From positions 4,692,501-4,756,500 of the forward strand of contig NZ_JACCFJ010000001.1 in the NCBI RefSeq assembly GCF_013410345.1: a stretch of 64,000 bases of DNA. The letters are read 5' to 3'. The notes under the pieces are model-generated. The model worked only from the letters and a program-made list of their open reading frames with translations, had not been told where the DNA came from and made no database searches. Source of the DNA: Saccharopolyspora hordei. GTDB taxonomy: Bacteria > Actinomycetota > Actinomycetes > Mycobacteriales > Pseudonocardiaceae. Made by a program: the position numbers and the translations under genes. Shown here in pieces: positions 44,279 through 53,581 of this stretch (within the stretch, counting starts at the first letter, position 1; each line of letters starts with the position of its first letter).

Positions 44279-45031
44279 GTGGTGGACTGTCTCTGGCCGG
44301 TGGACGGCGCGCAGCAGGTGGACGACGACCTGGAACGGTTCTACGCCTACCCCGAGCAGCTGGACCGCCCGTGGGTGCGGGTCAACTTCGTCTCCAGCCT
44401 CGACGGGGCGGTCACCGTGCGGGGCAGCTCACGCGGGCTGTCCGCGCCGGTGGACCAGCGGGTGCTGGGGCTCATCCGCGACCTCTCCGACGTGGTGCTG
44501 GTCGGTGTGGGCACCGCGGTGGCCGAGGGCTACCGCGGGGTGAAGCGCACCGAGGTCCGCGCGGAGCGGCGCGAGCGCCGCGGCCTGTCGCCGGTCCCGC
44601 CGATCGCGCTGGTCACCGCCCGCGCCTCGCTGCCCCCGGACTCGCCGCTGCTGACCGACACCGTGGTGCCGCCGATCGTGCTCACCACCGAGGCCGCCCC
44701 CGCGCAGCGCCGGGCCGAGCTCGCCGACGCCGGTGCCGACGTGGTCGTGGCCGGGGACGCGGAGGTCGACCTGCGGGCGGCGCTGGCCGCGCTGGACGAG
44801 CGCGGGCTGCGCCGCATCGGCTGCGAAGGCGGGCCGCGGCTGTTCGGCTCCCTGGTCGACCAGGACCTGGTCGACGAGCTGTGCCTGACCCTCTCCCCCT
44901 TGCTCACCAGCGGCGACGCGAGACGGATCGCGGTGGGCGCGGGCGCTGAGCCGCCCCGGGCGATGCGGCTGCGGTCGGTGCTGCACGCGGGATCGCTGCT
45001 GCTGGTGCGTTACGCAAGAATGCGCGAGTGA
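44279..45031 (+). CDS. RibD C-terminal-like pyrimidine reductase
   Basis: The 250-residue protein (GTG 44279) is a single RibD C-terminal reductase domain related to 5-amino-6-(5-phosphoribosylamino)uracil reductase. Marks are RPWVRVNFVSSLDGAVTVRG near residue 28, VVLVGVGTAVAEGYRGV near 75, and GCEGGPRLFGSLVDQDLVDE near 185, which is the family GGxxL motif region. Stand-alone forms occur in riboflavin-like or deazaflavin pathways and in drug resistance (dihydrofolate reductase-like). GTG 44282 is an alternative start. Its exact substrate is unknown. Confidence 0.82.
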   Translation: MVDCLWPVDGAQQVDDDLERFYAYPEQLDRPWVRVNFVSSLDGAVTVRGSSRGLSAPVDQRVLGLIRDLSDVVLVGVGTAVAEGYRGVKRTEVRAERRERRGLSPVPPIALVTARASLPPDSPLLTDTVVPPIVLTTEAAPAQRRAELADAGADVVVAGDAEVDLRAALAALDERGLRRIGCEGGPRLFGSLVDQDLVDELCLTLSPLLTSGDARRIAVGAGAEPPRAMRLRSVLHAGSLLLVRYARMRE

Positions 45032-51294: not shown

Positions 51295-51540
51295 GTTCCC
51301 CCTTCGCGGTCCGAGAGTTCGCCCGGCGGGCCGACGCCGGCGCGGGCCGCGGCTCCGACGCCGCGCGTCCCGCGGTCCGCGCGGGCGCGGGGACCGCCGA
51401 ACCGGCCGGTCCTCGCCGGTGAACGTTAACGCGGCGCTGCGGCCGGCAACATCGGAATGTCAGGGCCCTCACCGAGGCCTCACGTCGATCATGCGATGCT
51501 GGCCGAGTTCCGCCACCGCGCTCGCCGACGAGGAGTACCC

Positions 51541-53100
51541 GTGCCGCGCACCTCTCATCGTGCCGGGGCCGTGCTGCTGCCGTTGCTGCTGGTGGTGCTC
51601 GCGGCGTGCTCGGCCGGCCCCTCGGACCGCCCGGCCGTCGCCTTCCAGGACGGCGACCAGCAGGTCGCGCCCGCTCCGCAGCCGCCGAAACCGGCTCCGG
51701 TCCCGGAGCTCGGCGGCCCCAGCGACGACGTGCTCCCCTGGTCGGACTGCACCGAGCAGACCCGCGAGGAACTGGGTGGGCTGCCGCCGGGCACGCAGGT
51801 GAGCTGCTCGCACCTGCTCACCACGCTCGACTCCCCGGAGGCCCCGGAGCGCGGCACCGCGCGCAACGCGCTGCTGCGCGTCGGTCCGGGCGGGCGCGTG
51901 CCGCTGGTGGTGGTCGGTGACGTGGGCGGGGAACCCGGCACCACGTTCGCGGCGCGGATGGCGACGCAGGTGCCCGAGCTGCTGGGCACCTTCGACATCA
52001 TCGGCATCGACCGGCGCGGCACCGGGGAGTCCGACCCGGCCGACTGCGTGCCGCAGCTGGAGCGGGAGAACATCGTCGACTTCGACGCCCGCGCCACCGA
52101 CCGCGCCGACCTGGACCGGCTGCTGGACTCGGTGCTGCGCGCCAGCCAGGAGTGCCTGCTCGACCTGGACGAGCGGCTGCAGGCCTACGACACCTGGCGG
52201 GCCGCCTCCGACCTGGAGGAGCTCCGCTTGGACCTGGGCGTGCCGAAGCTGCACGCGATCGGCCGCGGTGAGGCGGCCCGGCTGCTGACGACCTACGCCG
52301 AGCGGTTCCCGACCTCGGTGGGCCGCGTGGTGCTGGACGGCGCACCGGACCCGACCCGGGACACCATCGGGCAGGAGGAACTGCGGGCGCAGAGCGCGGA
52401 GCAGGTGTTCGACGTGTTCGCCGCGGACTGCGTCGCGCGCGGCTGCCCGCTGGGCCCGGACCCGCGGAAGGCGGTCAGCGACCTCGTGGAACGCACCCGC
52501 CACCAGCGGTTGCCGGCTCCGGGGACCGAGGTGGGCAGCGGCCGCGTGGTGCAGGCGGTGCTGCGCGGCCTGTCCGACCGCAGGAGCTGGCCCGCGCTGG
52601 CCGACGCGCTGGCGGCGGCGGACCGCGGGGACGGTGCCGGGGTGGCGGACTTGAGCGCCCCGCTGGTCACCGAGCAGGGCGGCGACCCCCCGTGGCTGGA
52701 CGGCGATCTCATCACCAGCTGCAACGACACCACGCTGCGGGTGCCGCCGCAGCGCACCGGGGAGCTCGCGGCGGACTGGGTGAGCAGGTTCCCGCTGTTC
52801 GGCGGGGTCGCCGTGCAGCGGCTCGTGTGGTGCGGGTCGTGGCCGGTCCCGCAGCAGCCGTTGCCCGCGCCGCGCCGCCCCGACCTGCCACCGATCCCGG
52901 TGATCAGCACCGCGAACGACCCGCTGGTGCTGGCGGCGGGCAGCGAGCACATGGCCGACCAGCTGCCGACCGGCGTGCTGGTGCGCTGGCAGGGCGCCGG
53001 GCACGGCGCCATCGGCCGCTCCGCGTGCGCGACGGGCGCCGTCACGCGCTACCTGCTCCAGGGCACCGTGCCGACGGACGGCATGGCCTGCCCGGAGTGA
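51541..53100 (+). CDS. Lipoprotein of the TAP peptidase family without nucleophile
   Basis: The 519-residue protein has a lipoprotein signal with the lipobox LAAC near residue 20 and belongs to the tripeptidyl-aminopeptidase/S33 alpha/beta-hydrolase family (RRGTGESD near 160, CNDTT near 400). Where relatives have a GxSxG nucleophile elbow, it reads LHAIGRGEAARLLTTYAERF near 240: serine is replaced by glycine. The acid in STANDPLVLAAGSEHM and the histidine in GAGHGAIGRS remain. It should therefore lack ordinary peptidase activity and may be a binding or scaffold protein. GTG 51541 has AGGAG 5 bases upstream. Confidence 0.82.
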   Translation: MPRTSHRAGAVLLPLLLVVLAACSAGPSDRPAVAFQDGDQQVAPAPQPPKPAPVPELGGPSDDVLPWSDCTEQTREELGGLPPGTQVSCSHLLTTLDSPEAPERGTARNALLRVGPGGRVPLVVVGDVGGEPGTTFAARMATQVPELLGTFDIIGIDRRGTGESDPADCVPQLERENIVDFDARATDRADLDRLLDSVLRASQECLLDLDERLQAYDTWRAASDLEELRLDLGVPKLHAIGRGEAARLLTTYAERFPTSVGRVVLDGAPDPTRDTIGQEELRAQSAEQVFDVFAADCVARGCPLGPDPRKAVSDLVERTRHQRLPAPGTEVGSGRVVQAVLRGLSDRRSWPALADALAAADRGDGAGVADLSAPLVTEQGGDPPWLDGDLITSCNDTTLRVPPQRTGELAADWVSRFPLFGGVAVQRLVWCGSWPVPQQPLPAPRRPDLPPIPVISTANDPLVLAAGSEHMADQLPTGVLVRWQGAGHGAIGRSACATGAVTRYLLQGTVPTDGMACPE

Positions 53101-53132
53101 TCCCGCACGCACCCCGGGCAGGCCCGCGCCGC

Positions 53133-53237
53133 TCAGCCGCAGCTGGAGCAGCAGCCACAGGACGGACCGGTGCAGCTACCGCAGCAGCTGCAGCCACCCT
53201 GGGCGTGCGGAGCGCGCTCGACTTCGGTGCAGACCAT
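53133..53237 (-). CDS. Cys-rich 34-residue peptide
   Basis: The ORF encodes 34 residues with nine cysteines, eight in the last 19 residues (GCSCCGSC, then SCGCCSSCG). The N-terminal half MVCTEVERAPHAQG is hydrophilic. A strong GGGAGG ribosome site lies 5 bases before ATG 53237. Its upstream region is unusually AT-rich for this genome and has a 10-bp inverted repeat (53269-53278 and 53358-53367). It is too short for usual gene finding. A metallothionein-like Cu/Zn buffer or a small exported or modified peptide are possibilities. I do not recognise the family. Confidence 0.65.
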   Translation of the reverse strand: MVCTEVERAPHAQGGCSCCGSCTGPSCGCCSSCG

Positions 53238-53268
53238 AGGGGCCTCCCGTTCGTGGCGATTACCAGCG

Positions 53269-53367
53269 ATTGCGATGGTGCTCGCCAACGGAGCAACGTC
53301 GACACCGCTGGCCGAGCGAACCGCTGTCCGCCATCGAGATGATCACTACCCATCAATCCATCGCAAT
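53269..53367. promoter_or_regulatory. Inverted repeat upstream of Cys-rich peptide
   Basis: ATTGCGATGG (53269-53278) and its exact inverse CCATCGCAAT (53358-53367) bracket an 80-base stretch upstream of the Cys-rich ORF. The first copy is preceded by a direct repeat of GCGATT. The area has lower GC content than its surroundings. It probably contains the promoter and metal- or redox-responsive operator sites, but no known box was recognised. Confidence 0.5.
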
Positions 53368-53444
53368 GCGTAGTCGATCACAGAGCGCGACGATCCGTCA
53401 CGCGTGCGTGACGAAGATCGCTGCACGTCTTCGGGAGGAGCACC

Positions 53445-53581
53445 GTGCTGGACGAGGCCGTCCTGCTGATCACCGGCATCTCCGCCGCCGGGAAGTCGGG
53501 CTGTGGCTGGACACCTCCGCCCAGCCCCCGGAGCAGACCGTCGACGAGGTCCTGCGCCGCTGGCGCGAGGCCGTGGCCTGA
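53445..53581 (+). pseudogene. Collapsed P-loop kinase gene
   Basis: A GTG with a strong GGGAGGAG site starts MLDEAVLLITGISAAGKS, a complete Walker A start of a small AAA/chloramphenicol-phosphotransferase-like kinase. Right after the lysine-serine, the sequence jumps in another frame to GLWLDTSAQPPEQTVDEVLR, then RWREAVA and a stop, which is the C-terminal end of the same family. The 120-150 residues between are missing. A single internal deletion with a frameshift explains this. The gene is dead. Confidence 0.75.

Follow-up and report, generated by a model that had tools for sequence, protein, structure and literature searches.

Metallothioneins are characterized by CxC, CC and CxxC motifs and by the absence of aromatic residues. 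The mini copper metallothioneins of fungi (Neurospora) have a length of about 25 residues. In a review (PMC7558416), the same motif features are given for metallothioneins, and the mycobacterial MymT is described as a 4.9 kDa protein predicted to bind up to six Cu(I). Zinc metallothioneins of the SmtA/BmtA/PflQ2MT type (PF02069) adopt a GATA-type zinc-finger fold (PMC10612145). The metallothionein from Pseudomonas is conserved, is induced in stationary phase and is needed for long-term survival, not for metal resistance (PMC7387436). It is thus a precedent for a metallothionein without metal-resistance genes. In Streptomyces, MtpA (SCO4227) is annotated as a metallothionein and is encoded beside phoU (PMC2267785 and PMC7866108).

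Here we describe a cysteine-rich peptide from Saccharopolyspora hordei. This genus is known as a source of erythromycin and spinosad (PMC7752772) and belongs to the Pseudonocardiaceae, the host family of the peptide. The peptide and its relatives probably form a new family of miniature, metallothionein-like peptides that would bind metal and that have their own promoter. The peptide does not belong to PF02069; that it works like a metallothionein is what we infer. The term window denotes the whole stretch of DNA that was analyzed (64,000 nucleotides). The features of the locus are as follows.

53301–53319, minus strand: promoter box TCGCTCGGCCAGCGGTGTC, partly palindromic, from a motif search of upstream stretches
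53275–53280, minus strand: putative -10 element CACCAT (fits nAnnnT), starting 20 nt after the box
53243–53248, minus strand: Shine-Dalgarno sequence GGGAGG, with the ATG 5 nt downstream
53133–53237, minus strand: gene for the Cys-rich peptide, from translation, relatives and substitution pattern
53139–53192, minus strand: 18-residue core CSCCGSCTGPSCGCCSSC, a pair of CxCCxxC units with [TS]GPx between them
53085–53124, minus strand: strong hairpin past the stop codon of the peptide gene, a possible terminator (fold -39.2 kcal/mol, z -3.8)

Translation of the ORF gives MVCTEVERAPHAQGGCSCCGSCTGPSCGCCSSCG and a stop codon. These are 34 residues with nine cysteines in two clusters, just as a first-pass annotation of this DNA had described, and the ribosome-binding site that it named is also in place. 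The peptide has the features of the metallothionein class, being small and very Cys-rich, with few aromatic residues and with CxC, CC and CxxC motifs; Phe, Trp and Tyr are absent. The window contains two 20-residue stretches with at least eight cysteines. One is the peptide itself and the other, CGCGRCCTRDRCCWCVTQEC, is found near 44964 (plus strand) and has a Cys spacing unlike that of the peptide family.

The ORF is a real, conserved gene. In a search of 61 genomes, it was found in its own genome and in all 21 other Saccharopolyspora genomes. Internal stop codons or a lost Cys spacing in close relatives, which the first-pass annotation had named as a reason to abandon the gene, were encountered in none of the 21. 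The peptide sequence is under purifying selection: for 13 sequences from the genus, pN/pS is 0.21 for the whole peptide and 0.10 for the core, while the remaining five frames of the same DNA have values from 0.37 to 2.44.

A profile search in Pseudonocardiaceae, also proposed earlier, resulted in matches of profile A1 in 220 of 390 genomes, representing 41 of 46 genera and including all 22 Saccharopolyspora genomes, while 170 genomes are without a match (E<=0.001 in both cases). Carriers include Saccharopolyspora, Halosaccharopolyspora, Lentzea, Saccharomonospora and Longimycelium. In Lentzea (genus g8), there are two copies per genome in all 24 genomes listed as matching. In the order sample, 56 of 397 genomes matched, and all 56 are Pseudonocardiaceae. 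In the phylum sample, the only match among 296 genomes is the own genome. The class sample yielded 6 matching genomes among 394, four of which are from outside the family. These four weak matches were judged not credible. Two (L088, L089) are the Cys-bearing part of a 168-residue frame that is devoid of the first CxCC unit, and two (L086, L087) have no 30-residue stretch with seven cysteines. Thus, the order, class and phylum samples contain no credible member of the peptide family beyond Pseudonocardiaceae. Searches against plasmids and phages gave no match.

The peptide has no relative in Pfam, NCBIfam, PHROGs or the PDB sequences, so that the gene was previously unlisted there. The PF02069 model has no match in any of 22 Saccharopolyspora genomes, while its positive control was found in Synechococcus elongatus. 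No description of the peptide family was found in the open-licence PMC literature. That we are dealing with a spurious ORF, as its very short length and the lack of a library match may suggest, can be dismissed with near certainty in view of the relatives throughout genus and family, the substitution pattern and the promoter unit described below.

Sequence comparison was based on 78 mutually related, hand-picked loci with the required pattern CxCCxxC-x(3-5)-CxCCxxC. They were derived from a set of 88 (87 of 159 loci plus the window) by removal of one locus without the pattern and nine duplicates. The conserved core, C-x-C-C-x-x-C-[TS]-G-P-x-C-G-C-C-x-x-C, has 18 residues and consists of two similar units around a turn. 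All eight core cysteines are cysteines in 78 of 78 loci, which is partly by construction because the loci were chosen by their Cys spacing. This does not apply to the codons, which interchange between TGC and TGT. Family members are about 20–36 residues long. The N-terminal tail comprises about 14 residues in the window peptide but is nearly absent from those members with just 20–22 residues, which suggests that the core alone suffices. The ninth cysteine of the window peptide (C3) was rejected as part of the motif, as relatives mostly have Arg, Gly or His at this position. In this respect, the earlier proposal of a new mini-metallothionein had to be corrected. It stands in that no known metallothionein model matches and in that the core cysteines vary like metal ligands (see below).

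Several residues other than Cys are also strongly conserved: the Gly that follows [TS] (77/78), the Pro (75/78) and the Gly of CGCC (78/78). They suggest a defined fold and thus a structural zinc knuckle or adaptor, which would fold around one or two Zn and bind a partner protein, RNA or a membrane, without buffering. A cationic N-terminus such as MIKRLLKVVLR, found in part of genus g16, is in line with this. However, the tail is otherwise variable or missing, and the rest of the core is mostly Ser or Gly, which leaves little surface for a specific partner. We consider such a role unlikely.

Natural variants were found in three genera. In g16, a His-form query detected a divergent form in 64 of 80 genomes (E<=0.05). 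Of these 64 matches, 42 were loaded, and 41 fit the reading pattern CCxxC-x4-CGCCxxC. In all 41, which represent eight distinct cores, His replaces the first core cysteine. The weight of this observation is reduced since the loci were drawn with the His-form query itself, since other g16 loci (L133, L149-L151, L222) retain all eight cysteines, and since the His form may go back to one evolutionary event. In part of g16 (L260-L275), the HGCC core is preceded by a cationic, partly hydrophobic tail (MIKRLLKVVLR and variants), hinting at binding to a membrane or a partner. Single examples from g48 (MGGCCGCSNC...) and g39 (...AGCGCGCSNC...) have permuted Cys positions in the first half of the core but keep eight cysteines; among the 16 g39 genomes, a credible case of this form was recovered from one. 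As read from these sequences, the ligand count is better kept than the ligand order, and His appears able to replace Cys, which points to behavior as metal ligands. The His form and the permutations would be difficult to reconcile with disulfides, thioethers or codon-counting attenuators.

With 44% Cys in the core, the peptide could also be a thiol or redox buffer, a gene-encoded thiol reservoir against oxidative or disulfide stress to which metal is incidental. In 10 of 78 loci, the upstream region has a divergently oriented gene related to NADPH-dependent FMN reductases (Pfam FMN_red), which is directly adjacent in 9, and the window has an msrB gene (SelR) about 2 kb from the peptide gene. 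Both would suit such a reservoir. However, a thiol pool would need neither a precise spacing nor a His form nor the retention of eight ligands. The sequence GGAAT, typical for sigma-R-type promoters, occurs in some loci but has no position that is shared across loci upon inspection by eye. We assign this explanation a low probability.

In the window, the neighbor of the peptide gene is a convergent gene for a TAP-like alpha/beta hydrolase (51457–53100, plus strand; Pfam Abhydrolase_4), and the hairpin overlaps its final codons. A corresponding hairpin folds in loci L039 (z -3.3) and L054 (z -7.1). On the other side (53445–53581, plus strand), there is a remnant of a P-loop kinase-like gene with start- and end-like stretches while the middle is gone; several relatives from the genus keep a gene of about 176–180 codons there (Pfam AAA_33 in one of them). 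This hydrolase gene converges on the peptide gene in 42 of 78 loci. Lentzea loci have a thioesterase-like gene as neighbor, and unrelated genes adjoin where neither these nor the FMN reductase-like gene are present. Up to two genes per side were collected with a simple, purpose-made gene caller. For the 36 loci without hydrolase, this resulted in 98 neighbor-cluster representatives, and each Pfam family occurs in at most 3 of them. A metal exporter, a metal sensor or a RiPP maturase was recognized neither among 25 of the 143 matched Pfam families nor among 20 of the 98 representatives viewed singly. In hydrolase-type loci, inspection of neighbors by eye revealed no metal exporter or RiPP maturase. 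The peptide gene thus has the looks of a stand-alone gene, and the co-occurrence with metal exporters that the first-pass annotation had envisaged did not materialize among the inspected neighbors.

The neighborhood also bears on two further explanations. As a RiPP precursor, the peptide would have a leader (MVRTE...QGG) and a Cys-rich core that is modified and then exported. Many members have a GG before the core, and the core is rich in Cys, Ser and Thr; but the members with 20–22 residues are nearly leaderless, no recurring maturase was recognized among the inspected neighbor clusters, and the family is spread over 41 of 46 genera. The short modified peptide considered in the first-pass annotation is thus very improbable. 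Mycobacteria have uORFs that act as Cys-codon attenuators, and the ORF might accordingly control a downstream gene. However, what follows the ORF in 42 of 78 loci is the convergent hydrolase, the downstream genes vary between groups without a conserved co-directional gene, and it is the protein sequence on which selection acts. An attenuator is hardly conceivable.

A motif search in 300-nt upstream stretches uncovered the 19-nt box TC[AG]CTCGnnn[AG]G[CT]GGTGTC, which is present in 75 of 78 loci (>4 bits) and scores at least 12 bits in 72. In 72 of these 72, a hexamer nAnnnT starts 19 or 20 nt past the box. This is a loose -10 pattern with just two fixed bases, and it is found at other offsets in 0–8 of 72 loci singly and in 0–12 of 72 per adjacent pair. 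Upon cross-validation between the two neighborhood classes, for which the joint fit supplied the site positions, the 99% shuffle level was exceeded in 37 of 42 loci of one class and in 22 of 36 of the other. The unit of box and -10 element recurs across differing gene neighborhoods. For the divergent g16 loci, the promoter was found in 41 of 41, a looser count because the box was shortened and the spacing window widened to about 4 positions. The dyad symmetry of the box is imperfect (3.1 of 4 pairs on average, a value without control). We predict that the box is bound by a regulator and coincides with the -35 region or immediately precedes it, a placement that would be activator-like. The first-pass annotation is borne out in that the small gene is real, and a conserved promoter unit precedes it.

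Other elements upstream fared differently. The 200 nt ahead of the gene have 61.5% GC, compared to 75% across the surrounding 14.5 kb, so that the region is AT-rich in relative but not in absolute terms. The reported 10-bp inverted repeat has arms of 8 bp, CGTCACGC-AC-GCGTGACG, at about 53396–53413, further upstream than the box. Among 13 loci from the genus, it occurs only in the window and is absent from the 12 others. It was rejected as an operator; the conserved element is the box. Another sequence, approximately TCACnTAGCGA...GCATG, recurs about 23 nt upstream of the box in loci such as L136, L144-L146, L149 and L152, and 16 of 72 loci have a half-site-like match at this offset. Control via PHO boxes was rejected, since half-sites with 11-nt spacing are absent around the box. 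We know of no metal-regulator site that the box resembles.

Exact matches to the box were searched in 150 genomes. There are 36 matches in 35 genomes, while a reversed-pattern control had 3. By position, 24 of the 36 lie away from the peptide gene, an excess over the control that argues against a strictly private box. For the 29 matches that were examined, nAnnnT is found at 19–20 nt in 10 of 10 cases at the peptide gene but in 0 of 19 elsewhere. Most of these 19 are located within long open frames, and a single recurring sequence, apparently inside a coding frame, accounts for six. Thus, where examined, the complete unit looks private to the peptide gene. In the own genome, the box is exact at one site and has one mismatch at three sites; with up to two mismatches, there are 41 sites in all, compared to 113 for the control. 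Neither the exact matches in 150 genomes nor the own genome at up to two mismatches revealed a wider regulon. It is unusual that a promoter site is so well kept for a single gene.

Returning to the metallothionein-like reading, the core would present eight ligands, either all Cys or with one His besides seven Cys, and would wrap a few soft metal ions, e.g., in two Zn(II)/Cd(II) sites or in a small Cu(I)-thiolate cluster. Metal-free, Cys-rich peptides of such shortness are expected to be disordered. In the cytosol, the peptide may store or buffer metal. Its own promoter would yield a single-gene transcript, with the conserved box at or next to -35 probably being read by an activator. As to the metal, Zn(II)/Cd(II) is somewhat favored by the eight-ligand count and by the His form, while analogy to the mycobacterial MymT somewhat favors Cu(I). 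The metallothionein-like reading is based on the 220 carriers among 390 family genomes, the core pN/pS of 0.10, the ligand variation and the recurrent promoter unit. It is weakened by the lack of a match to a metallothionein model, by the lack of a metal exporter or sensor recognized among the inspected neighbors, by the box being unlike the metal-regulator sites that we know and by the 170 genomes without a match. A stricter version, in which the peptides of about 20–36 residues are stand-alone metal stores throughout the family and the box of a private regulator forms a promoter before the peptide gene only, is possible but rather doubtful.

If the peptide binds metal, few known gene-encoded metallothioneins would be as small as its versions with 20–22 residues. 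The natural all-Cys, Cys/His and Cys-permuted versions are a ready-made series for tests of metal specificity, and the promoter unit is a handle on its regulator.

With Streptomyces MtpA, the peptide shares that it comes from an actinobacterium, where that gene carries a metallothionein annotation. MtpA, which we compare by its description, differs from it in that the box of the peptide gene lacks PHO-box-like half-sites spaced by 11 nt, and the class-wide profile search did not point to a credible relative outside Pseudonocardiaceae. SmtA, BmtA and PflQ2MT are similar in using Cys plus some His as ligands. They differ in that the peptide does not match the PF02069 model, and their GATA-type zinc-finger fold is unlikely for a core of 18 residues. 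The mini copper metallothioneins from Neurospora are alike in size and Cys density, by which we claim no homology, and have a Cys arrangement other than CxCCxxC twice. The comparison with MymT is indirect, through the A1 profile, which has no match outside Pseudonocardiaceae among the 397 genomes of the order. The conserved core of the peptide is much shorter than MymT. Like MymT, however, it is the product of a small, Cys-rich actinobacterial ORF that was at first not annotated.
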